A stretch of 64,000 nt of DNA from Ruegeria sp. A3M17 (GTDB lineage: Bacteria > Pseudomonadota > Alphaproteobacteria > Rhodobacterales > Rhodobacteraceae). The translations under genes were made by a program, and so were the position numbers. Under the pieces are notes generated by a model. That model was given only the letters and a program-made list of their open reading frames with translations. It was not told the DNA's origin and ran no database searches. Positions 8,748-30,291 of the stretch are shown here, piece after piece (position 1 is the first letter of the stretch; the number at the start of each line of letters is the position of its first letter). The DNA lies in contig NZ_QOCF01000020.1 in assembly GCF_003318255.1 (NCBI RefSeq), positions 1-64,000 on the forward strand. The letters are read 5' to 3'.

Positions 8748-10001
8748 ATGCCCGCTTTATGCCGCGACTGCTTTTCGATTTTGGAACAGGAAGCGCGTTG
8801 CCCTTCCTGCGGAAGCCCGCGGATCAAGACCCACCCTGAGCTGTTCGACCTGTCCATCGCGCATATGGATTGCGACGCCTTTTATGCCTCGGTCGAAAAG
8901 CGGGACAATCCTGAACTGGCCGATAAGCCGGTGATCATCGGGGGCGGCAAACGCGGTGTCGTGTCAACCGCGTGTTATGTGGCCCGTATTCGTGGGGTTC
9001 GCTCTGCGATGCCGATGTTCAAAGCCTTGCAACTGTGCCCGGACGCCGTTGTCATCAAGCCTCGCATGTCGGTCTACGCCGAGGTGTCACGACAGATCAG
9101 GGTCATGATGGACGAATTGACCCCCGTGATCGAACCGCTGTCACTGGACGAAGCATTCATGGATCTGTCCGGCACGCAGCGACTGCATGGCGCGCCACCT
9201 GCGGCCATGCTGGCAAGACTGGTTAAGCGGATGAAGGACGAGCTGGGCGTAACAGGCTCGATCGGTCTGTCGCACAACAAGTTTCTAGCCAAGGTCGCCT
9301 CTGACCTGGACAAGCCGCGTGGATATTCAGTGATTGGAAAAGCTGAGACCGCCGAATTTCTGTACGACAAACCGGTGCGCCTGATCTGGGGTATCGGACC
9401 AGCGGCACAGGAATCGCTGGATCGCGCAGGCATCCGCGCCTTCTCGGACCTATTACGCTGGGATCAGGAGGCACTGACAGCCCGGTTCGGATCAATGGGA
9501 TATCGGCTGTGGCATCTGGCGCGCGGACAGGACAAACGGCGCGTCTCTTCGCATGAGCCGATGAAGTCGATCAGCAACGAGACCACGTTTTTCGAGGATA
9601 CGGCCAGCCTGGACATCCTTGACGGGCATCTGTGGCGCATGTCCGAAAAAGTTGCGGATCGCGCTAAAGCCAAAGGGCTGGCCGGACGGGTCGTAACCCT
9701 GAAACTCAAACAAGCAAACCACAAGGTCATCACCCGACGTGTCTCGTTGCGGGACGCCACTCAGATCGCGGACCGCATCTACCGCACGGCCCGTGGGCTG
9801 TTTGATCAGGTCGGCGACAAAGGGCCATATCGTCTGTTGGGTTGCGGAATTTCCGATCTGTGCCCCGAAGATCAGGCGGACATCTCGGGAGACCTTTTGG
9901 ATCCCGACGCGTCAAGACGGTCTCAGGCGGAACGCGCTACGGATGAAATCCGGCGCAGATTCGGAACTGATGCGATTGTCAAAGGCCGGGCTTTGCGCTG
10001 A
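8748..10001 (+). CDS. dinB: DNA polymerase IV (Y-family translesion polymerase)
   Basis: The 417-residue protein carries the Y-family catalytic motifs MDCDAFYASVE near residue 40 and SLDEAFMDLSG near 135, followed by thumb, HhH (WGIGP) and little-finger regions. It differs from E. coli DinB by an N-terminal extension of about 35 residues containing CRDC and CPSC, a likely zinc-ribbon of the kind seen in alphaproteobacterial DinB proteins. AAAGG before the ATG supports including it. It ends 2 bp from the convergent N-formylglutamate amidohydrolase-like gene. Confidence 0.95.
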   Translation: MPALCRDCFSILEQEARCPSCGSPRIKTHPELFDLSIAHMDCDAFYASVEKRDNPELADKPVIIGGGKRGVVSTACYVARIRGVRSAMPMFKALQLCPDAVVIKPRMSVYAEVSRQIRVMMDELTPVIEPLSLDEAFMDLSGTQRLHGAPPAAMLARLVKRMKDELGVTGSIGLSHNKFLAKVASDLDKPRGYSVIGKAETAEFLYDKPVRLIWGIGPAAQESLDRAGIRAFSDLLRWDQEALTARFGSMGYRLWHLARGQDKRRVSSHEPMKSISNETTFFEDTASLDILDGHLWRMSEKVADRAKAKGLAGRVVTLKLKQANHKVITRRVSLRDATQIADRIYRTARGLFDQVGDKGPYRLLGCGISDLCPEDQADISGDLLDPDASRRSQAERATDEIRRRFGTDAIVKGRALR

Positions 10002-10003
10002 GG

Positions 10004-10864
10004 TTACTCAGCCGCCAGTCGCAACGGATCGCGGCCAATACCCGAGATTTCCCGAATGACCTGCCGCAATACGTTCTGAAACGCTGCGAAATTGCCGTTC
10101 GGCGCGATTTTGACTTCATCCATGTAAAGAGAGCGGTCGATCTCAATCTGGATAGCGTGCTGATTGCGTCCGGGCCGCCCGTACGTCTGTGTCACGTAGG
10201 CGCCGGCGAAAGGCGCGTTGCGCGCCACGATCAGGCCCGCCGAGGCAAACGCGGATTCGATCCGGTCCACAATATCGGCCGAAGCCGAAGCGCCAAACCT
10301 GTCACCCAACACGATCTGCGGGCGCTGGGACGTGGACGTGCTGGCCATCGAAACCGCTTCATGCGGCATCGAATGGCAATCAATCAAAATGGCCTGACCA
10401 AAAGCGGCGTGCGATTCGGTCAGCAGCGACTTGAGACGCGCATGATAAGGACGCCAGCAGGTGTCGATGCGCAGACGCGCCTCGTCCATCGTTAGCTTGC
10501 CGCGATAGATTGCGCGCCCATTGGCGACGACCCTGGGAATCACGCCCAGCCCCGAAGCGACACGCGGGTTATGGCCGTGGCGGCGCGCGCCCTGGATCAA
10601 AGCCGGGTCCAGCTCCTCAGCACTGCGGTTAAGATCCAGATAGGCTCTTGATTTTGTCGCGGATATCAAGGGCGCACCATGGTCAGTCGCTGCGGAAAAC
10701 AACTGATCCACGAATGCATCTTCCGAAGATCGAATCACATTCTGGCTCAGAACCGTCCGGTTCAGCATCGCTTCGGGGTAGTTCCGGCCACTGTGAGGAG
10801 AAGAAAATACAACGCAAGACGTGCGCTTGACGGGCATATCCAATACGTAAGCAGCGTTCTTCAT
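10004..10864 (-). CDS. N-formylglutamate amidohydrolase family protein
   Basis: This 286-residue zinc-dependent deformylase/amidohydrolase (FGase fold) has SSPHSGRNYP at the N-terminus, an ILIDCHSMP motif near 165 and HAIQIEIDRSLYMDE near 240, all characteristic. In histidine degradation the family releases formate from N-formylglutamate. However, no hut genes are nearby, so a general role on N-formyl or N-acyl amino acids is equally likely. AAGGAGTCACC precedes the ATG. Confidence 0.85.
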   Translation of the reverse strand: MKNAAYVLDMPVKRTSCVVFSSPHSGRNYPEAMLNRTVLSQNVIRSSEDAFVDQLFSAATDHGAPLISATKSRAYLDLNRSAEELDPALIQGARRHGHNPRVASGLGVIPRVVANGRAIYRGKLTMDEARLRIDTCWRPYHARLKSLLTESHAAFGQAILIDCHSMPHEAVSMASTSTSQRPQIVLGDRFGASASADIVDRIESAFASAGLIVARNAPFAGAYVTQTYGRPGRNQHAIQIEIDRSLYMDEVKIAPNGNFAAFQNVLRQVIREISGIGRDPLRLAAE

Positions 10865-11013
10865 GGTGACTCCTTGTTCGCATTGAACATAGACCGGAAA
10901 ATAGTTCTACCAAACCCCTTGAACCCCTTTGCGACTCCTTTTATAGACCCCGCTACCGGCGCGGGGTTCCGCGCCCCATTTCGTTATGGGGCAGGGCAAC
11001 GCAAAGGTTAAGT

Positions 11014-21526: not shown

Positions 21527-22120
21527 TTACCCTGGCTGATACCCTTGCAGATATTGGGACATGAACGCGGACAATTCAGCTTGTACCGCATCCGGGTCCA
21601 ACGCGACGAACCGACCTTCCAGCGATAGCTTTACTATGCCGTGCACGGCAGAAAACACGGTTCGTGCACGCGCAGCCAATGTGTCGTCGTCCAACTGAGG
21701 GTTCAATTGCGACAACGGAGCGATGATCTCGGCGATGAGCACCGCATGTTCCTCAAGGTGCCATTGCGGGACCGGTACGCCCGGCTGCATCCGGTGATCG
21801 AATAAAGCGGCCCATAGGTTTCGGTTCTTGGTACCGAAATCCAGGTAAGCCAACGCAAGTGCAAGCAACTTTTCCTTGGGCGTCTCTTGCGATGCGGGGG
21901 CGTTTTGTAGTGAGACGTGCAAACGCGCCAGTGTGCGCGAGTTCACCGCCAGTATCAGAAGGTCCAGATCTTCAAAGGCATTATAAAGACTGCCCAGCGC
22001 ACATCCGGCATCTTTTGTGATGTCACGGGCGCGCAGCGCAGCCAAACCTTGTGATTCAATACGCTTTTCCGCAGCATCCAAGATCTTTTTTTTCAGGATT
22101 TCTCTTTTACTTTCCGCCAC
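21527..22120 (-). CDS. TetR-family regulator, probable repressor of the pspA-like operon
   Basis: The 197-residue protein has the N-terminal TetR helix-turn-helix (residues 10-55, with ALRARDITKDAGCALGSLYNAF as recognition region) and a helical ligand domain. It is transcribed away from the pspA-like gene, and the 112-bp gap contains three closely matching palindromes. It probably represses both itself and pspA-yiaA. The inducing signal is unknown. The TRAP genes lie downstream on the same strand, so read-through into them is possible. Confidence 0.9.
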   Translation of the reverse strand: MAESKREILKKKILDAAEKRIESQGLAALRARDITKDAGCALGSLYNAFEDLDLLILAVNSRTLARLHVSLQNAPASQETPKEKLLALALAYLDFGTKNRNLWAALFDHRMQPGVPVPQWHLEEHAVLIAEIIAPLSQLNPQLDDDTLAARARTVFSAVHGIVKLSLEGRFVALDPDAVQAELSAFMSQYLQGYQPG

Positions 22121-22145: not shown

Positions 22146-22215
22146 TGAACATCGTTCATTTTAATGTTGAACGATGTTCAGAATCATCGCATAGTCATCT
22201 CATGAACAGTGTTCA
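22146..22215. promoter_or_regulatory. Three TetR-type operators between the TetR gene and the pspA-like gene
   Basis: Three copies of the palindrome TGAAC-N3-GTTCA are present. They are TGAACATCGTTCA (22146-22158), its exact inverse TGAACGATGTTCA (22168-22180), and TGAACAGTGTTCA (22203-22215). Centres are 22 and 35 bp apart. The third lies 18 bp before the pspA-like start codon, close to the ribosome binding site. Placement and symmetry fit the divergent TetR protein. Confidence 0.8.
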
Positions 22216-22232
22216 TAAACGAGGAGTCAAAG

Positions 22233-22934
22233 ATGTTCAAACAGTTTGCCACTTTGTTAAGAGGCCGGGCCTTTGAGGCGGCAACCGTTGTTACGGATCG
22301 TCACGCTCTACCCATTTTGCGTCAGCAAATCCGGGATTGCGCCCATGCCATTCAGGTGTCGCGCAAGGCGGTCGCCGTCGCAATGGCGCAGAACGAACAA
22401 GAGATCAGACAGCACAAGAGGTTGACCCAACAGATCGCAGACCTCGAAACGCGCACGCTGGATGCCTTGCAACAAGACCGCGAGGATCTGGCGCGGGACG
22501 CAGCCGAGACAATCGCCCATCTTGAGGCAGAGCGTGACGTGTCAACGCAAGCGCAGGCCCGGTTTGAAACCGAGATCAGCCGCCTGCGCACTGTCCTTCG
22601 CGAGGCCGAAACCCGGCTAAGGCAGTTACAGCGCGGTCAGCGCCTTGCCACAGCCACGGACAAGACGCAGCGCCTTCAGCAAGTCGCGCCAGACAGCGGG
22701 TTGTCCACACTCCGCGAGGCGGAAGACACCTTGCAACGCTTGCAAGAGCGCCAAAGCGAGATGGACGCCACCGCGCGCGCCATGACCGAGCTAGAAGCAA
22801 CGGATTCGGCCGAGCACATTCGCGACAAGTTGGCTGAAGCAGGGTGCGGCAAGCCCTTGCGGTCAAACGCTGACGACGTTCTCGATCGCCTGAAAAAGAA
22901 GGCGCAGAAATCCAACAAATCGAAATCGAGCTGA
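22233..22934 (+). CDS. PspA/IM30-family membrane-stress protein
   Basis: The 233-residue protein is almost entirely coiled coil, with repeated E, Q, R and L heptads between residues 30 and 200. It begins with the amphipathic helix MFKQFATLLRGRAFEA typical of PspA/VIPP1 proteins, which bind stressed inner membranes. The start at 22233 follows GAGGAG. The usual partners PspB, PspC and PspF are absent; instead it is controlled by TetR-type operators and co-transcribed with a YiaA-like protein. It is shorter and more divergent than E. coli PspA, so the name should be read as family membership. Confidence 0.85.
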   Translation: MFKQFATLLRGRAFEAATVVTDRHALPILRQQIRDCAHAIQVSRKAVAVAMAQNEQEIRQHKRLTQQIADLETRTLDALQQDREDLARDAAETIAHLEAERDVSTQAQARFETEISRLRTVLREAETRLRQLQRGQRLATATDKTQRLQQVAPDSGLSTLREAEDTLQRLQERQSEMDATARAMTELEATDSAEHIRDKLAEAGCGKPLRSNADDVLDRLKKKAQKSNKSKSS

Positions 22935-22981: not shown

Positions 22982-23272
22982 ATGAATACCGAAGAAAACC
23001 TGAACCTGCCGCAATCCAACGCCTGGAACATGTTCACCATTATTTCGTTCATTGTCGCGGCAGCGATGATGGCTGGCGGCATCTACTTCCTGGAAGCCAG
23101 CTTTGCGGCAAAAGGGTTCTACTCCATGTCCGCGTTGATGTTGGTACATACCACCGTTTCGATCACAAAAACCCTGCGCGACCGTGAGGAATCGCAACGT
23201 CTGCACAATCGGATCGAAGACGCAAAGACCGAGAAGCTGCTGAAAGAGGTGGGCGAGAACATCGCCGCCTAA
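22982..23272 (+). CDS. YiaA/YiaB-family two-helix inner-membrane protein
   Basis: The 96-residue protein has two hydrophobic segments (about 18-40 and 47-65, with FTIISFIVAAAMM and SALMLVHTTVSITKTL), as in the YiaA/B domain, followed by a charged cytoplasmic tail. AAAGGAATTGATCC precedes the ATG. It follows the PspA-family gene by 47 bp and should be part of the same TetR-controlled unit, suggesting a membrane-stress role. It overlaps the convergent nitroreductase-like gene by 4 bp. Confidence 0.85.
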   Translation: MNTEENLNLPQSNAWNMFTIISFIVAAAMMAGGIYFLEASFAAKGFYSMSALMLVHTTVSITKTLRDREESQRLHNRIEDAKTEKLLKEVGENIAA

Positions 23273-24243
23273 ACGATAACCTCGCGCACCGACAGGCGCG
23301 TTCGACTGGGGGTGGCACCGTTGGCGACCCCCAGTCTTAACGCGTTGAACAGAACCCTGTCGGCTGGTATGTTAATACGATCCGAAACAGCGGCGCGCGT
23401 AAGTGGGTCATCCGCCAAAGCCGCGGCAGGCCATCCCACCAACCCACGTGCGGTGGCTTGTAACCAGGACCGGTAAAACGCCCGGCCAGCGGCGACCATC
23501 GACCCATTTTCAGGCCAGTGATACAGTGCGATTGCACCTGCCCCACGGCTGCGCGCAGCCTCGCCCGACAGGTGCGGGCCCAGGCCCAAGAACGATAAAA
23601 TGTCATAAAGCCTGCCACCCAGAATGGTTGGTGCAAACCTTGCGGTAGCCGCATCCATAACAAGCACCTCTCGGTTCAGACCGTCGGTGTGGTAGTTGGG
23701 ATCGTCTTCGCGCAAGCGCATCCAGTGCAGCAACTCGGACCGAAAGTCCCTGGACCGCATGACCCGGGCCGAGGCGATGTCGATTTGCCCGGCAAGCCAT
23801 TCGATCTGGGACGCATCCTGGACCAATGCCATGTGGTCGGCGCGCCAATTCCGGAAGGCTTCTTGCGGTGAAGGTGTAAAACCTGCACGATGCGTCAGAC
23901 GCCTTGAAACCTCCTTGGCCAGCACCACGTCACCGGCATCAGCGGTTGGCTTGGGGACAATGCGGGCAATCATGCGCAATCCCGCCTCGACCGGCCCTTC
24001 CGACAAGGTTACGTCGGCATCAAATCCGCGCGCCGCCAGGGCCAACACTGTGCCCTCGACCGCCGCACCACAGGAGACGTCCAGATCACGATCGTCCGGG
24101 TCTCCAATAGGCAGGCGCCGTGACAGATCGGCATGGACCTCGATACACGCGCCATCCAGCCGCCATCGCGCTGGTTGCGTGTTATGCGCCGAAGGGGCAA
24201 GCATCGCCTGCGCAACAATTGCTTCAAATTCTGCGCGATCCAC
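23269..24243 (-). CDS. Acg-type nitroreductase-like flavoprotein, last gene of the five-gene operon
   Basis: The 324-residue protein matches the Acg (Rv2032-like) subgroup of the nitroreductase fold. APSAHNTQPARW near residue 15, LPIGDPDDRDLDVSCGAA near 45-62 and the C-terminal NALRLGVANGATPSRTRLSVREV segment correspond to FMN-fold positions. True enzymatic nitroreduction is doubtful in this subgroup. The start codon overlaps the stop of the upstream acetyltransferase gene by 1 bp. In mycobacterial Rv1355c (MoeY) an E1/ThiF domain and an Acg-type domain are, to my knowledge, fused in one protein, so finding both in this operon is meaningful. Confidence 0.78.
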   Translation of the reverse strand: MDRAEFEAIVAQAMLAPSAHNTQPARWRLDGACIEVHADLSRRLPIGDPDDRDLDVSCGAAVEGTVLALAARGFDADVTLSEGPVEAGLRMIARIVPKPTADAGDVVLAKEVSRRLTHRAGFTPSPQEAFRNWRADHMALVQDASQIEWLAGQIDIASARVMRSRDFRSELLHWMRLREDDPNYHTDGLNREVLVMDAATARFAPTILGGRLYDILSFLGLGPHLSGEAARSRGAGAIALYHWPENGSMVAAGRAFYRSWLQATARGLVGWPAAALADDPLTRAAVSDRINIPADRVLFNALRLGVANGATPSRTRLSVREVIV

Positions 24244-25349
24244 TACGTCAGCTCCTTGGAAAACAGATGCAACCTGTGCAGCGGTACGGCCCCCGCCTTT
24301 TCAGTTTGGCGCAAACTGGCCGCGTTTTCCTCAGCAATCCACGTGCCACCAACCGTTTTATATCCGGCGGCCATCATGTCCCGTGTCATCTCGCTCAGCA
24401 TCAATGGATTGACCGAACGGCCCTGAAACTCGGGCATTACGCCCTGAAAGATGACCACTGCGCGGTCACGGCGGGCTTTGTATTTGAGGTAGTGATACGG
24501 CAGCGACAGGCGCAACCGCGATCCGATCCGCCGGAGCAATGGGTTGAGATCGGGAATGGCAATCACCGCGCCCGCAGGCTGACCACGATAATGCACAACT
24601 TTTGAAATCCGCGGGTCCATGATCCATTTCATGTCTTTGGCCTGAAAGTGGAACTCTTCAGCCGTCACCGGAACAAACATTGGGTTGTCTTTGAAGCTGC
24701 AGTTCAGAATGGCACGGGCGTCTTCAAGTCGTTCGGCGATGGTCGCACGGGTGACAGGCGCGAAAGAGAACCCTTGCTCTAACAATTGCGCGCGCTGCTC
24801 GTCGGGCAAAACCTGCGGGGCCGGGTTGGTGTCTAGACGCCGTTCGAACGTCGTCATCGGAAAGTGTGCCTTGTATCCGTTCTCCTCAAGCAGCCCTGGC
24901 AGGTGTCCAGGCCCCCAGATCTGATCGGTAAAAGGGGCCCGGTCAAAACCATCCGTCATGATCCCTGCCTGCTGCATCGCAGTCAGGTTGAAATTGCCGG
25001 TCAGCCGGGTCATGCCCTTCGCGCGGGCCCAGCTTTCCGCCGCCTGCAGCAATTGCGCAGCAACCTCGGGATCATTTGCGCAATCGAAAAAGCCAAAGCA
25101 TCCCCGTGCCTCATGATGCAGGTCATTCGATCCCCGATGCAGATGGGCTGTGATGCGACCCACAGGCTTGCCTTGGCGTTTCACCGAGAAATAGGTGATG
25201 TCCGATGCATCGGAAAACAACGGATTCTTGATCGACAAGAAACGTTTCAGATCCGCCTTCATCGGGGAAACATACAGAGTGTCGGCACCATAGGCGTGAA
25301 ACGGGGCCGCGAAGAAACTTGCAAAATCCCGTTCGAGCAACTCAATCAT
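24243..25349 (-). CDS. GNAT-superfamily acyltransferase (YghO-like, tandem)
   Basis: The 368-residue protein looks like two GNAT-fold halves. The N-terminal half holds GRITAHLHRGSNDLHH and GFFDCANDPEVAAQLLQAAE, and the C-terminal half has the acetyl-CoA loop VMPEFQGRSVNPLMLSEM and ENAASLRQTEKAGA. This arrangement is that of YghO-like proteins, whose substrates are poorly known. It is the fourth gene of the operon, starting inside the stop of the membrane protein gene (4-bp overlap) and ending inside the start of the nitroreductase-like gene. It may acylate the product of the E1-like enzyme, but that is inference. Confidence 0.75.
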   Translation of the reverse strand: MIELLERDFASFFAAPFHAYGADTLYVSPMKADLKRFLSIKNPLFSDASDITYFSVKRQGKPVGRITAHLHRGSNDLHHEARGCFGFFDCANDPEVAAQLLQAAESWARAKGMTRLTGNFNLTAMQQAGIMTDGFDRAPFTDQIWGPGHLPGLLEENGYKAHFPMTTFERRLDTNPAPQVLPDEQRAQLLEQGFSFAPVTRATIAERLEDARAILNCSFKDNPMFVPVTAEEFHFQAKDMKWIMDPRISKVVHYRGQPAGAVIAIPDLNPLLRRIGSRLRLSLPYHYLKYKARRDRAVVIFQGVMPEFQGRSVNPLMLSEMTRDMMAAGYKTVGGTWIAEENAASLRQTEKAGAVPLHRLHLFSKELT

Positions 25350-26530
25350 GCCTGCGCCCCATTTACCAAGACGCGCGCCATGCGCTGTACCGCACGCAAG
25401 GCTGCACCGGTACTGTCCAGGGCCGCGATTTCAGGACTGTTGAGCATGACCACCCGCATCGGGGTGCCGGACAGGAACACCGCATGGGTCGCATCAAAAC
25501 GGGCGAACAGCCAATTGACCTGTTCGTCATCCGTTGCCCCCAATTGTTGCACGGGTGTTGTGGTGAAGCTGGCGCGCAAATCATCAAGATTCATGTCCAT
25601 CAAATCTGCTTCTTCCACCAGTATCACGTCCGGAGATCCGGCAGCCCGACGCAGCAAAGTCAAGCTGGCTTGTGGTCCCTGCCCTTCGACATCCGCAATC
25701 TCGCGCAGGGCGATCAGCTGGCGATCCTCAATCCGCAAGGCAATCGCCGCCTGCCAAATTGCCAACAGCATGAGCGTGGACAATATGATCGCTATTAGCT
25801 GCACGCCGGACCGCATATCCACCGGCACGATCCCCGAAAAGATCAGCGGTAGCAGAACGGCCATGACAATAACGATGCCGAAACCTCGCAGCGTATCCCA
25901 CGGCCGCAATCCGGAACGGTTCATCCCGATCGACAACCAGCACAGTCCCAGCACGGCCACGCCACCCAGCCTGACCGGCAGGTCAAGCGCCGTACCGCGC
26001 ATGAAATCTGTTGCCAGAAACGGCAGGATCAGCAGAAAGGACAGGCTTATCCAATTGATGGTTCTGTTTTCCGCCGATGACAGGCTGTCTTTGTCGCGCC
26101 GCAACACGAACAGAGCGACGCCGCCCAAACCGAACAGTTGAAACAGCAGCAGACCGGCCAGCCGGGTGATCTCAACACTGCTGAACTGGAAAAGACCCAA
26201 CAGCCCGAAAATCACGCCCCCCCAAGCACAAACCTGTTTCAGCACCGGCGGCGCGTGGCGGCGCATAAGCCCTTCGGAGAGAACAAGTGCAGCCAAAGGT
26301 ATCAGTGCCGCGCAGATATTTGTGACCGCCGAAAACAGCCAACCCCAGCCGCCCCAGTGACCAATCCGAGCCAGCATCAGAACGACCAGAACCCACAAGC
26401 AAAATTGAAACCGCTTGGCGATTTCCGGCCTCTGCACCAGGTCCTGAAGACGCAGCAAAACAGTTGCCGCACCCAGCGCCGCACAGAGCGAAACCCAGGC
26501 ATCCGCCAGAAAGGCCGCAGTATCCATCAT
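25346..26530 (-). CDS. Multi-pass membrane protein with a soluble C-terminal domain, function unknown
   Basis: The 394-residue protein has seven or eight hydrophobic segments between residues 8 and 255 (for example LWVLVVLMLARIGHWGG, LLLFQLFGLGGVALFVL, FGIVIVMAVLLPLIF, LIAIILSTLMLLAIW). A roughly 130-residue cytoplasmic domain follows, with an acidic strand pattern (DVILVEEADLMDMNLDDL) and a final helix (AALRAVQRMARVLV) that loosely recalls a GAF-like fold. I do not recognise the family. It overlaps both neighbours by 4 bp and is third in the operon, perhaps a sensor, exporter or membrane anchor for the enzymes. Confidence 0.7.
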   Translation of the reverse strand: MMDTAAFLADAWVSLCAALGAATVLLRLQDLVQRPEIAKRFQFCLWVLVVLMLARIGHWGGWGWLFSAVTNICAALIPLAALVLSEGLMRRHAPPVLKQVCAWGGVIFGLLGLFQFSSVEITRLAGLLLFQLFGLGGVALFVLRRDKDSLSSAENRTINWISLSFLLILPFLATDFMRGTALDLPVRLGGVAVLGLCWLSIGMNRSGLRPWDTLRGFGIVIVMAVLLPLIFSGIVPVDMRSGVQLIAIILSTLMLLAIWQAAIALRIEDRQLIALREIADVEGQGPQASLTLLRRAAGSPDVILVEEADLMDMNLDDLRASFTTTPVQQLGATDDEQVNWLFARFDATHAVFLSGTPMRVVMLNSPEIAALDSTGAALRAVQRMARVLVNGAQA

Positions 26531-27402
26531 GACGCCAGCAACTTGTTCATCTGCTGTCGAACCAGCGGACGCATCAGCGCGGCAAGAAAGCGCGGCAAAG
26601 GCCGCTCAACTTTGCCAGTGTGTGGGTTCAGAAACCAACCGCGATAATCCGCGCCGTGCGGGCGGCCCAGTACAGACTGAAGCGCCTCTCCTCCCATCAA
26701 TGTCCCCGCCATAATGACCATCGGCGCAAAGGACATGCGGCTGCGGGTTCCGGCAATCACCTCACCTGCCAGAGCCAGATCAACGTGGTGCCGGGATGAG
26801 GAATGGGTCAGCACATATTCGGCCTCGGCTTGGGCCGCCGCATCCCGCATCTCGGGGGGTAGCGCGTTCCAGATGGTGCCGGGTTTGGTGTAGCCTAGAC
26901 GTTCCTCGGGCATGGGGTCGTCGGGGGTTGTGACATAGACTGACGGCAACGGGGACGCATAGGCATCGATCACCGCGCGCCCTTTGGCCCGCGCCGTCCG
27001 ATATAGCAGCAAGCTGGCGCCAAGATCGTCTGTGCCATTGATCACAACATCCGCGCTTTGAACCAGACGATCCACATGGTCGGGCCATTCCGCACCAAGC
27101 ACCTCAATCTCAGCTTCGGGATTGATTTGCAGGCACTGATCCCGCGTTGCCTGCGCTTTGTCCTGATCGACTGTCTTTAGCGTCGCAAAAAGCTGTCGGT
27201 TCAGGTTGGACACTTCGAACGCATCCAAATCGGCCAGGATCAACCGGCCCACCCCGGCGCGGATCAGGGTCATGATCGCGCTGCCCCCCATTCCTCCGGT
27301 GCCGCAGACGAACACACAGGCGTTGCGCAGTCGTGATTGCTCATCCCCGGACACAAAACCGAGGTTGCGGGTCGTAAATTCCTGATAGGTAAATTCCGTC
27401 AT
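26527..27402 (-). CDS. E1/ThiF-family adenylating enzyme without visible catalytic or zinc cysteines
   Basis: The 291-residue protein is an E1-like adenylyltransferase. The nucleotide loop GTGGMGGS is near residue 34, and LADLDAFEVSNLNRQLF contains the Asp, Asn and Arg that activate ATP. VINGTDDLGASLL continues the Rossmann fold. Unlike MoeB or ThiF it has no CxxC zinc pairs, and I see no cysteine at the usual thioester position, so it may only adenylate a carboxylate. No ubiquitin-like protein is encoded nearby. It overlaps both neighbours by 4 bp. The combination with an Acg-type protein recalls mycobacterial Rv1355c. Confidence 0.85.
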   Translation of the reverse strand: MTEFTYQEFTTRNLGFVSGDEQSRLRNACVFVCGTGGMGGSAIMTLIRAGVGRLILADLDAFEVSNLNRQLFATLKTVDQDKAQATRDQCLQINPEAEIEVLGAEWPDHVDRLVQSADVVINGTDDLGASLLLYRTARAKGRAVIDAYASPLPSVYVTTPDDPMPEERLGYTKPGTIWNALPPEMRDAAAQAEAEYVLTHSSSRHHVDLALAGEVIAGTRSRMSFAPMVIMAGTLMGGEALQSVLGRPHGADYRGWFLNPHTGKVERPLPRFLAALMRPLVRQQMNKLLAS

Positions 27403-28421
27403 TTATTCTGCTCTCTTGGCCTGAGGATGCCGAATTCGTGCCGCGTGTCCGCCCATTGCCAAAGCGGCATCGCCAGTCGCTGCAAGACCGCAGCTATGAC
27501 CGCAAGGGCAAGGGCAGCAAAGGACCCGCGCGGAACTTCGCGCCCGACATAAGACAGGGCGGTCGGCATATCCATTTGCCCCAATTGCAGGACGTCATCG
27601 CCCCGATCATAATCGAGCTGGTTTTCACAGAACGCATTGACGATTTGATCCCGATATTTCGGCGCATCCTCGAAGGTTTTCTTCAGATGATCCGACCCGC
27701 CGGTATAGGCGTTGGTGATCACAAAGCGGTCTTCGTCAAACCCTGCATCAGGTCCGACGCCAAAGACATGGCGGTGATCTTTCATGATGCTCCGCGCCAA
27801 ATGCAGATGCAGAAGACTGCGTCGGTTCTGCGGCCCCGTCTGTGCCGTGGGAAACACCCGGGCAAAGCCCTGACCAACCAGCCCAACAACTGCAGGGACT
27901 TGTGTCACATTCGAAACCCAAAGCGGGCGCATACCATTTCGAAACAAGAGCAGCACACAGGTCAGCCCATAGAGAACCCAGCTGAAGCCCTGGTTGCGAA
28001 GATCCGGATCAACCATGACCAATCCCAGATGCAATACCTGTTCGGACCGGTGCCCCAAGTCGACATCCATCAGAGCCAAAGCATTGAAGGCAACAGGCGT
28101 ATCATCATCCCGGCGCGAAATCAGAGTGATCACCGAATACCCAAGCCGGTCGCGATCCCCGGCGAAGACGCCATATGCCAGTTCTCCGGCAGGCAGCGTT
28201 TTCGACGCCACGCTCCGCAGATCCGCGACCAGGTTGTCCAGCTCATCGCTCGGCATCCAGAGACCGGGGCGTTCGACTATGCGTACGCGATGCCCACCTG
28301 GAATACTCAAACGGATATCCATGTAACGCTGCGAAGCCGCGTTAATTATGGCACTTATCAAATCCTGTTCCCGTTTATGTCTGCTCAACTCCGGATCCGA
28401 ACTATGTTTCGGTAAAGCCAA
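27399..28421 (-). CDS. GNAT-like acetyltransferase, first gene of the five-gene operon
   Basis: In this 340-residue protein a GNAT core is visible at about residues 105-200: a MDVDLG strand, LHLGLVMVDPDLRNQGFSWVLYG (acetyl-CoA loop with R-N-Q-G-F) and LWVSNVTQVPAVVGLVGQGF. A C-terminal hydrophobic helix (ALALAVIAAVLQRLAMPLW) could bind the membrane. The annotated frame begins with TTG at 28421; the first ATG (MDIRLSIPGG at 28322) is a plausible alternative start, and neither has a strong ribosome binding site. It leads the operon, so its promoter should lie in the gap before the sulfatase. Confidence 0.65.
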   Translation of the reverse strand: MALPKHSSDPELSRHKREQDLISAIINAASQRYMDIRLSIPGGHRVRIVERPGLWMPSDELDNLVADLRSVASKTLPAGELAYGVFAGDRDRLGYSVITLISRRDDDTPVAFNALALMDVDLGHRSEQVLHLGLVMVDPDLRNQGFSWVLYGLTCVLLLFRNGMRPLWVSNVTQVPAVVGLVGQGFARVFPTAQTGPQNRRSLLHLHLARSIMKDHRHVFGVGPDAGFDEDRFVITNAYTGGSDHLKKTFEDAPKYRDQIVNAFCENQLDYDRGDDVLQLGQMDMPTALSYVGREVPRGSFAALALAVIAAVLQRLAMPLWQWADTRHEFGILRPREQNK

Positions 28422-28680: not shown

Positions 28681-30291
28681 ATGCAGACAAAGTTGAGACC
28701 GAACGTAATTTTAGTCTTGGCGGATGACTTGGGCTTTGCTGATTTAGGTGCAACCGGATCAGAAATCCGGACCCCGAACATCGATGCTCTTGCCCGTAAC
28801 GGCGTGCTGCTTTCAACCATGTATAACTGCGCCCGTTGCTGCCCGACGCGGGCATCTCTCTTGACCGGGTTGTATCCACACAACGCAGGCGTGGGCCACA
28901 TGGGGGCGCATCTGGGAACGCCCGCGTATCAGGGGTTTCTACGCAATGATAGTGCCACGATTGCAGAGCACCTGAAGGCAAATGGTTACCGGACCCTGAT
29001 GTCAGGCAAATGGCATGTCGCCGGGGACTTCATGGCCCGCGAAATCGATAGCTGGCGCATCGGCGATTTTGAGCATCCAACGCCGCGACAACGCGGGTTT
29101 GATCGTTTTTACGGAATTGTCGACGGCGTCACCCACTTCTTTTCGCCTCACTACATGCTCGAAGACGACAGCCGCGTTATGACCTTCCCGGATGACTTCT
29201 ATTTCACGGATGCAATCACGGACAAAGCCATTGGAATGATCGAAGAAACCCCTGACGATCAGCCCTTTTTCCTTTATCTCGCGCATACTGCACCGCATTG
29301 GCCTCTGCATGCCCATCCCGAGGATATTGCGCGCTATGACGGCGTATACACATCGGGCTGGGACGCTATTCGCACGGCGCGACATGAAACCATGAATGGC
29401 ATGAACCTATTCCAGACAAACTGGGATATCTCACCACGTGACGGCGATGTTCATCCTTGGGGCTCAGAGAAGAACACTGATTGGGAGGCGCGTAAGATGG
29501 CCACCTACGCCGCGATGGTGGACAGGATGGATCAATCTATCGGCAGGCTTATCTCTGAGCTGAAGCGCATGGGACATTTTGAAAACACGCTGATCATGTT
29601 TCTGTCCGACAACGGTGGATGCGCTGAGTTCATGGCCGAAGACGGGTGGGCAAAATTCTTTCCGGATACCACGAATGATGGTCGACACATCAAGATGGGA
29701 AACCGTGCTGACGTGATGCCGGGCGATGCTCTGACTTATCAGAGCTACGACAAACCATGGGCAAATGTGTCGAATGCGCCGTTCCGGCTGTTCAAGCACT
29801 ACGTCCATGAGGGCGGCATTTCGACACCTCTCATAGCACACTGGCCCAAAGGGTTCGCACCGGGCGCAAATGCGCATGCGGCTTGCCACGTTGTCGATAT
29901 TCTACCGACAATATTGGAGGCAACGGGAAGCCAGTACCAAGGCGAGGTTGGCGGGCACGAAATTCAGCCTCTGCAGGGACAATCCTTGATGGACCTGTTT
30001 CGCGGCAAGGGCTGGTCGCGTGAAGAACCCATCTTTTTCGAACATGAAGGCAACGCGGCCGTCCGGCTTGGTCAGTTCAAACTGGTCAGGCAGCATGGGC
30101 AGGATTGGGAACTCTATGACATCGAAGCAGATCGCACGGAACTGAGAAACCAAAGAGGACGCAACGCTGAATTGGAGGCTGACTTGGTTGGTCAATACAA
30201 TAGTTGGGCAAAGAAAACAGGCGTCATGGATTGGGATGTAGCACTTCCCAGGTTGCTCGACGCCTGGAAGATTGAATCCGCTGAGGGATAG
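28681..30291 (+). CDS. Arylsulfatase-family sulfatase
   Basis: The 536-residue enzyme hydrolyses sulfate esters. It carries the metal-binding LVLADDLGFADLG near residue 11, the C-x-P-x-R motif (CCPTR, residues 53-57) whose first cysteine would become formylglycine, GKWHVAGD near 110 and FLSDNGG near 306. All key active-site residues are visible. No signal peptide is evident, so it looks cytoplasmic, unlike many sulfatases. No maturase gene is adjacent. The ribosome binding site is weak. Sulfated algal polysaccharides or osmolytes are plausible substrates in a marine organism, but that is inference. Confidence 0.9.
   Translation: MQTKLRPNVILVLADDLGFADLGATGSEIRTPNIDALARNGVLLSTMYNCARCCPTRASLLTGLYPHNAGVGHMGAHLGTPAYQGFLRNDSATIAEHLKANGYRTLMSGKWHVAGDFMAREIDSWRIGDFEHPTPRQRGFDRFYGIVDGVTHFFSPHYMLEDDSRVMTFPDDFYFTDAITDKAIGMIEETPDDQPFFLYLAHTAPHWPLHAHPEDIARYDGVYTSGWDAIRTARHETMNGMNLFQTNWDISPRDGDVHPWGSEKNTDWEARKMATYAAMVDRMDQSIGRLISELKRMGHFENTLIMFLSDNGGCAEFMAEDGWAKFFPDTTNDGRHIKMGNRADVMPGDALTYQSYDKPWANVSNAPFRLFKHYVHEGGISTPLIAHWPKGFAPGANAHAACHVVDILPTILEATGSQYQGEVGGHEIQPLQGQSLMDLFRGKGWSREEPIFFEHEGNAAVRLGQFKLVRQHGQDWELYDIEADRTELRNQRGRNAELEADLVGQYNSWAKKTGVMDWDVALPRLLDAWKIESAEG

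Follow-up and report, generated by a model that had tools for sequence, protein, structure and literature searches.

The window analysed here is a 64,000-nucleotide stretch of Ruegeria sp. A3M17 (contig NZ_QOCF01000020.1, positions 1 to 64,000; host assembly of 4.44 Mb in 40 contigs). At 23269-28421 it carries five minus-strand genes that overlap by 4, 4, 4 and 1 bp in transcription order, as claimed in an earlier note on this DNA and confirmed by the open reading frame (ORF) listing. They encode a putative GNAT-fold acyltransferase (gene 1, NAT), an E1/ThiF-like adenylating enzyme (gene 2, E1), a membrane protein (gene 3, MEM), a YghO-like acyltransferase (gene 4) and an Acg-type, nitroreductase-like flavoprotein (gene 5, NTR). 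Genes 1, 3 and 5 are each labelled 'hypothetical protein' in the three annotated plasmid copies examined. The core of the system seems to be the acyltransferase and the membrane protein, which are inherited together; the E1-like enzyme, the flavin enzyme and the YghO-like protein come and go. The earlier note had described the operon as built around the E1, and in this respect the emphasis has to shift to the acyltransferase and its membrane partner. For the five-gene form, we lean towards a membrane-bound pathway to a lipid derived from an N-acyl amino acid, which would proceed by N-acylation, ATP-dependent cyclisation and flavin-dependent desaturation. This route is favored because the parts list equals that of the oxazolone pathways in the available text of two reports (PMC10404671, PMC12856293).

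Acyl-oxazolones are recently recognised bacterial metabolites whose physiological role has been called a major unresolved question (PMC12856293). In the available text, to which all statements on cited papers refer, the pathways tyzACB, oxzAB and trzAS are experimentally established (Mycobacterium tuberculosis, Pseudoalteromonas rubra, Rhodococcus jostii), TyzB, TrzS and OxzB close the oxazolone (azlactone) ring, and Rv1355c is now TrzS (PMC10404671, PMC12856293). TyzA is linked to FeeM by structure and OxzA is alike despite low identity; tyz adjoins the transporter gene mmpL9 (PMC10404671). The earlier note had proposed adenylation, acylation and a flavin step on a small molecule, with a membrane partner, and the composition of the oxz, tyz and trz pathways makes this plausible. 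Its idea of a distinct pathway stands as far as the linkage of the genes and the non-canonical E1 are concerned; the chemistry has published precedent in the acyl-oxazolones and in Rv1355c as TrzS. As a whole, the earlier interpretation was partly supported.

Recurrence of the gene order

Loci for comparison were the best 80 of 257 gene-1 relatives found with a six-sequence profile in named genomes, which is not an unbiased sample. Gene content was scored with profiles of all five proteins. All five genes stood in the order of the window in 41 of the 80 loci, only the YghO-like gene was missing in 13, and gene 1 and the membrane gene occurred alone in 22. The remaining four were L092, with the acyltransferase, E1 and membrane genes and neither a YghO-like nor a flavin gene within the fetched stretch; L036 (Mesorhizobium sp. 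ES1-1), with gene 1 and MEM kept and only fragments of the E1, YghO and flavin genes (~8954-10870); and L045 and L067, which are cut inside the operon by contig ends. Of the 80 loci, 78 have the membrane gene and L067 shows part of it; owing to the contig end, it is not assessable in L045. Exact 4-bp overlaps were found at 168 of 230 gene junctions in the fetched loci; the starts behind these values were assigned by a script, which took the earliest start lying at most 30 bp ahead of the end of the preceding gene, and individual overlap values are accordingly soft. Because of the five-gene order in 41 of 80 loci and the 4-bp overlaps at 168 of 230 junctions, the arrangement is not a product of chance. 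The view of the five genes as one linked unit is borne out by this order and by the co-occurrence of NAT and MEM in samples of 149 and 267 genomes. The families, whose lack of linkage elsewhere would have told against the earlier note, are thus linked in other genomes.

The closest named relatives found for gene 1 are five from Ruegeria, with 83-90% identity. Hosts were alphaproteobacterial in 78 of the 80 loci (Ruegeria, Yoonia, Loktanella, Octadecabacter, Mesorhizobium, Rhizobium, Bradyrhizobium, Ensifer and others); the other two were one Lysobacter (L034) and one metagenome-assembled genome (MAG) of Thermoanaerobaculia (L094). Two loci, L042 and L078, were scored as five-gene loci by homology: in L042, a plasmid copy of Rhizobium sp. 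32-5/1, the membrane and flavin genes are split over several ORFs, and in L078 the YghO frame is in two pieces. Among the literature matches listed, mostly titles with the start of the abstract, none was recognised as treating this alphaproteobacterial gene set.

NAT and MEM as the conserved core

The family and phylum samples were chosen independently of the operon. Among the 149 genomes of the family sample, which includes the host's own, NAT was found in nine (in G123 as a 74-residue piece only), MEM in eight, all within those nine (in G022 as the C-terminal part only), and E1, searched with one query sequence at E <= 1e-30, in six, all within the eight MEM genomes. In the phylum sample of 267 genomes, NAT and MEM were found together in five genomes and neither was found elsewhere; the four apart from the host's own have the two genes directly adjacent, with a space between them too small for an E1 gene. 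The chance of such overlap would be ~2e-12 (family) and ~9e-11 (phylum) if genomes were independent, which they are not. E1 was not found in a class sample of 385 genomes apart from the host's own, and the system is therefore sparse.

The other genes behave as a block. NTR accompanied ThiF in 54 of the 55 ThiF-bearing loci, and 22 of the 80 loci had neither gene. E1 was searched for in whole genomes for 19 of the 22 two-gene loci (L039, L085 and L087 were left out) and for L036 and L092. Among the 20 genomes with a two-gene or decayed version, one, that of L075, had a full-length E1 of the operon family elsewhere; in the remaining 19 the matches were partial and confined to roughly the first 150 positions, the pattern that MoeB-type proteins would give. 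The exception, Yoonia sp. F2084L, carries this E1 (G544 C6:587463-588329) besides its two-gene locus. On a quickly built tree of gene 1 with 66 rows, in which 24 of the 63 inner branches are weak, E1 presence needs six changes when L045, L067 and the decayed L036 are omitted from the state counts; the E1 block was therefore gained or lost repeatedly. The gene fragments in L036 show loss of the block in that locus. NAT and MEM are under purifying selection even without the block, with pairwise dN/dS of 0.06-0.15 among loci without a working block and 0.03-0.15 among loci with one (11 pairs in total). We infer that NAT and MEM form a working unit alone and that E1 and the flavoprotein, with or without the YghO-like protein, form a tailoring block. 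The loss of this block exposes the membrane protein as a partner kept with the acyltransferase.

Mesorhizobium and one Rhizobiales relative show every state, namely five genes (L033), four (L025, L029), decayed (L036) and two (L035, L039). These loci are a natural deletion series, and natural strains with five (Ruegeria), four (Octadecabacter) and two genes (Yoonia, Bradyrhizobium manausense) allow stepwise comparison.

The sequence of NAT gave a weak PF00583 signal, below the cut-off (E 0.057). Its AlphaFold2 (AF2) model (pLDDT 84.5, pTM 0.79) matched 19 chains at E <= 0.001 in a Foldseek search, GNAT-type acyltransferases (best E 1.5e-5), with TM-scores of only 0.24-0.31 by query length; NatD ranked best and N-myristoyltransferases lower. 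By this predicted fold, the GNAT-fold acyltransferase of the acyl-oxazolone pathways has a counterpart in the operon. A hydrophobic C-terminal helix spans residues 298-324 (340-aa numbering), and 58 of 66 NAT members (an alignment of 65 of the 80 loci and the window) have a hydrophobic stretch (19-residue mean >= 1.6) within the last 75 residues. NAT is probably membrane-anchored through this helix.

The AF2 model of MEM (pLDDT 90.2, pTM 0.84) shows nine hydrophobic helices, the last of which continues into a small alpha/beta domain; the charges of the loops suggest that this C-terminal domain would be cytosolic. The window MEM matched nothing in Pfam or NCBIfam at E <= 1, and a fold search returned nothing at E <= 0.001. 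Likeness to a G protein-coupled receptor (the best hit, E 0.026) and to adiponectin receptor 2 (TM 0.38/0.50, E 0.19) was judged to be unspecific similarity of helix bundles. In an alignment of 63 of the 78 loci and the window, R55, P78, E86, H92, K98, R145, L150, N155, D175 and L194 are invariant (64/64), and several of these residues (E86, H92, K98, R145, N155) lie in loops predicted to be cytosolic.

The constancy of MEM beside NAT also fits a rather doubtful alternative, in which NAT and MEM would be a signal synthase with a membrane sensor or exporter, and the E1, flavin and YghO block would tailor the signal, comparable to the acyl-homoserine lactone ring. It is favored by the build of MEM, a helix bundle whose C-terminal domain is predicted to be cytosolic, by a weak 7TMR-DISM_7TM match in 3 of 64 MEM members (best E 0.0012) and by the discussed likeness of oxazolones to signalling molecules (PMC12856293); the TetR genes close by in 33 of the 80 loci leave room for a regulator. 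MEM has, however, no kinase, cyclase or DNA-binding output and, compared with five PrsK sensor kinases, no profile relation (hhalign probability 0.8%), while several invariant polar residues in predicted cytosolic loops fit an enzyme subunit as well.

The E1-like protein

Operon E1s were aligned from 26 of the 55 loci, the window and the three plasmid copies (30 rows). The motifs GxGGxG and N-x-N-R-Q and the residues K82, D125 and D126 are invariant in all 30, and no row has a CxxC pair. Two pairs each are present in MoeB and ThiF of E. coli and in the host's own MoeB; E. coli TcdA has none, and two of seven PRK08223 proteins have one. With the adenylation residues kept and both pairs absent, gene 2 is, judged from its sequence, not an ordinary MoeB/ThiF or sulfur-carrier activator. 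The earlier note's view of a non-canonical E1 agrees with these counts, and the outcome that would have undone it, an ordinary MoeB/ThiF, is not what the operon E1s present. We take the cysteine missing from them to be the sulfur-transfer residue of ThiF, and TcdA to be a cyclising E1. D125 aligns with an aspartate common to MoeB, ThiF and TcdA. In TrzS, loss of D217, assigned to the ThiF adenylation motif, abolished the cyclised product (PMC12856293).

Among NCBIfam groups, PRK08223 scored best for E1, with 117 bits (over the first half only) vs <=88 for the ThiF/MoeB models; the comparison with a PRK08223 ThiF profile gave an hhalign probability of 99.9%, and the Rv1355c family model gave 48 bits. 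A search with the PRK14851 family led to the same seven genomes as PRK08223. In these seven fetched contexts, a FeeM/exosortase-type acyltransferase adjoins ThiF in L109 and L111. L109, from a genome of the same phylum, has, consecutively and on a single strand, an exosortase-type acyltransferase, a PRK08223 ThiF and an Acg-type gene (L109:198-3012), a composition like that of the published thalassotalic-acid clusters.

An E1 with a ThiF fold could also point to sulfur-carrier or ubiquitin-like conjugation or to an anti-phage E1 system, and gene 2 is indeed matched over its E1 domain by the PADLOC E1-E2 models (best E 1.7e-14). We regard such a role as very improbable: the CxxC pairs are absent, none of the other four proteins had a PADLOC match, and no carrier, E2 or protease family was seen in the five proteins or annotated beside the three plasmid copies, tiny ORFs outside the operon being unsearched. 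The earlier observation that the five genes include no ubiquitin-like protein, protease or precursor peptide holds.

The flavoprotein and the YghO-like protein

Gene 5 scored 161 bits with the Acg-family/Rv3131 model NF047509, below the cut-off of 199, vs 56 bits with the Rv1355c model PRK07877; a six-sequence profile matched the Acg structure PDB 2YMV at E 1.8e-17. By the published division of these enzymes, the scores suggest that gene 5 belongs to FDO-B. It differs from Acg and Rv3131 in its sub-threshold NF047509 score and in its linkage to an E1 and an acyltransferase. The Acg-type enzyme of L109 scored 78 bits with the Rv3131 model and 89 bits with the Rv1355c model; when this L109 protein was used in a plasmid search for named references, nothing matched. 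Sequestration of flavin has been proposed for Acg proteins. A role of NTR as a store for flavin or in stress, without action on the product, would agree with its resemblance to the Rv3131/FDO-B model; we consider it improbable, since NTR follows ThiF in 54 of 55 loci, is missing from all 22 loci that have NAT and MEM only, and has a gene that overlaps the pathway genes.

Gene 4 shares 26% identity with E. coli BL21 YghO (E 8e-41, 374 alignment positions), whose gene lies four genes from spt. We take the Caulobacter acyltransferase bCerS to be the CC_1154 of the account in PMC9386255. That account lists yghO under the name aca, for which the part of the N-acyltransferase in dihydroceramide synthesis is proposed (PMC9386255); bCerS has been placed at the cytosolic face, where it adds the second acyl chain (PMC11087976). 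The label of a YghO-like tandem GNAT, given in the earlier note, is upheld by this homology, with the correction that the E. coli homologue has been proposed for ceramide synthesis. In contrast to bacterial ceramide synthesis (YghO/Aca/bCerS), no spt was found among the neighbours scanned in the window or annotated in the three plasmid copies, whole genomes not being searched for spt. The host genome has no second YghO at E <= 0.01.

Proposed pathway and comparison with known systems

In the pathway that we favor, NAT, held at the inner membrane by its C-terminal helix and MEM, would transfer a fatty acyl group from acyl carrier protein (acyl-ACP) or coenzyme A (acyl-CoA) to the amine of an amino acid. 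The E1-like protein would adenylate the free carboxylate with ATP, and attack by the amide oxygen would give an oxazolone (azlactone); ring closure by this oxygen is proposed because the E1 has no sulfur-transfer site and the operon no carrier protein. The Acg-type flavoprotein would then desaturate the amino-acid side of the ring. Where the YghO-like protein is present, it may acylate an additional amine or hydroxyl. The neighbouring genes, which include membrane and lipid genes (PspA, YiaAB and an acyl-ACP-phospholipid acyltransferase), speak for this pathway. So do the fold and hydrophobic C-terminus of NAT, the adenylation residues kept by an E1 devoid of CxxC pairs, the joint occurrence of ThiF and NTR, the purifying selection on NAT and MEM in loci lacking the block, the acyltransferases next to PRK08223 ThiFs in L109 and L111, and the composition of the thalassotalic, kyonggic and stieleriacine clusters.

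The E1 could instead activate the N-acyl amino acid for coupling to an amine, an alcohol or a lipid head group, with NTR and the YghO-like protein finishing a linear two-chain aminolipid. MccB and PaaA, which use adenylation on peptides, are among the E1 structures matched by gene 2. Coupling would also suit the kinship of gene 4 with a protein whose proposed role in ceramide synthesis is attaching the second acyl chain (PMC9386255, PMC11087976), and some ThiF-containing producers in which no oxazolone was seen (PMC12479983). We think coupling unlikely, as the four-gene version has no obvious gene to supply the nucleophile, YghO being missing in 13 of 80 loci, and the closest tested precedents cyclise (PMC10404671, PMC12856293).

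By inference, then, the operon would work like an acyl-oxazolone pathway and differ from it in parts. It shares with oxz, tyz and trz an acyltransferase, a ThiF-type cyclase and an Acg-type flavin oxidase, adjacent or fused; unlike them, it has an FDO-B-like flavoprotein, a ThiF in a clade separate from the PRK08223 references, a constant nine-helix membrane partner and an optional YghO. Such a membrane partner or YghO is not described for oxz, tyz or trz in the available text of PMC10404671, PMC12856293 and PMC12479983. The thalassotalic, kyonggic and stieleriacine clusters likewise combine an N-acyl amino acid synthase with ThiF and a nitroreductase, operon-like in two producers; their synthase is of the NAS/NasY kind, and the available text mentions no membrane partner or YghO (PMC12479983). 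L109 and L111 hold the best-scoring described ThiF group, and L109 the row of acyltransferase, ThiF and NTR; their exosortase-associated acyltransferase is unrelated to NAT by profile, and their ThiFs and those of the operon stand in separate clades.

Several results weigh against an oxazolone-type pathway. Compared with FeeM-type synthases, NAT gave an hhalign probability of only 0.8% (with two sequences only on one side), PF21926 (FeeM) and PF13444 (Acetyltransf_5) matched none of the 66 NAT members at E <= 0.01, and FeeM was absent among the 50 fold matches listed. NAT is by sequence not a FeeM/NasY-type N-acyl amino acid synthase, so that the case for amino-acid acylation comes from its fold and its context. 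The operon E1s and PRK08223 make up two clades (support 98 and 96) whose junction, on long branches, has a support of only 63, and in five of the seven PRK08223 contexts no FeeM/exosortase-type acyltransferase was found among the neighbours tested, which were only some of them. The window NTR and 10 relatives scored 123-166 bits with the Rv3131 (FDO-B) model and 26-74 with the Rv1355c (FDO-A) model; by this proxy, gene 5 is not the FDO-A-branch flavin oxidase that is a feature of the oxz, tyz and trz pathways. According to the available text of PMC10404671, the data so far do not assign FDO-Bs to oxazolone synthesis; with the FDO-B-like scores, this makes the operon either a counter-example or the site of a different desaturation. 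Finally, the producers of thalassotalic, kyonggic and stieleriacine compounds carry ThiF and NTR, yet an oxazolone was not seen in them (PMC12479983). Because a FeeM-type synthase by sequence and the FDO-A branch are both missing, we do not class the operon as a member of oxz/tyz/trz.

Four elements are new against the available text on the oxazolone systems: a membrane protein as constant companion of NAT, an E1 block that is lost as a whole, a flavoprotein of FDO-B-like type and a relative of YghO. The operon would extend acyl-oxazolone-type chemistry to marine roseobacters and soil rhizobia and propose roles for mostly unnamed genes. More tentatively, NAT and MEM might be a new two-protein membrane machine for acyl-amino-acid lipids, an acyltransferase with an obligatory polytopic subunit, whose products the block would turn into a new two-chain or ring-closed lipid class tied to PspA-type membrane stress; on this view the flavoprotein would be the first FDO-B-like one to be shown working alongside an E1 cyclase.

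Locus layout and neighbouring genes

The features of the locus are listed in Table 1. The start of gene 1 is likely the TTG at 28361 rather than 28421, as this codon coincides, when aligned, with the earliest start codon of the Ruegeria homologue L017 and also with position 1 of the gene-1 profile. The sulfatase gene upstream of the operon had no match in a six-locus comparison.

Table 1. Genes of the operon and its surroundings in the window.
Feature	Position	Strand	Length	Assignment	Evidence
Gene 1 (NAT)	27399..28421	-	340 aa as listed; 320 aa from the probable start 28361	putative GNAT-fold acyltransferase, probably membrane-anchored	
Gene 2 (E1)	26527..27402	-	291 aa	ThiF/E1-like adenylating enzyme, proposed N-acyl amino acid cyclase	PF00899 E 1.1e-34
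Gene 3 (MEM)	25346..26530	-	394 aa	nine-helix membrane protein with small C-terminal alpha/beta domain	AF2 model
Gene 4	24243..25349	-	368 aa	YghO-like tandem-GNAT acyltransferase	PF00583 E 3.3e-6; 26% identity to E. coli BL21 YghO
Gene 5 (NTR)	23269..24243	-	324 aa	Acg-type flavin mononucleotide (FMN) oxidoreductase, proposed desaturase	PF00881 E 3.3e-7; NF047509 161 bits
YiaAB	22982..23272	+		YiaA/YiaB-type two-helix membrane protein; convergent to gene 5, 4 bp in common	PF05360 E 2.6e-13
PspA	22209..22934	+		PspA/IM30-family protein	PF04012 E 1.2e-25
TetR	21527..22120	-		TetR-type regulator (TetR_C_33)	PF13305 E 2.3e-13
Sulfatase	28681-30291			sulfatase; divergent, upstream of the operon	PF00884 E 8e-60

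Neighbouring genes were recorded in the fetched stretch of the 80 loci, up to 8 kb on each side, with the background rate unmeasured. PspA was present in 34, YiaAB in 36 and TetR in 33 of the 80 loci; they were not visible in the other 44 or more. They occur in at least three arrangements. In Ruegeria, including the window, they are convergent and downstream; in Mesorhizobium and Ensifer they lie past an acyl-ACP-phospholipid acyltransferase; in Bradyrhizobium they stand upstream, on the strand of the operon. The acyl-ACP-phospholipid acyltransferase itself lay near the operon in 10 of the 80 loci, an eleventh candidate, the 26% Aas match in L032, not being counted; it was also near two of the three annotated plasmid copies. 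These links point to membrane biology but are partly inherited together.

A dihaem cytochrome c peroxidase/RoxA-like gene lies downstream on the opposite strand in 12 loci, all with five genes, among them the Lysobacter and the Thermoanaerobaculia MAG; the family was assigned from L037 only (L037:13077-14753). It adjoins the end of the operon in 11 of the 12 and is ~2.6 kb away in L031. Xylose-type genes flank 13 of the 80 loci, 12 of which are two-gene loci (Yoonia, Loktanella and kin), and were taken as local synteny of a single lineage.

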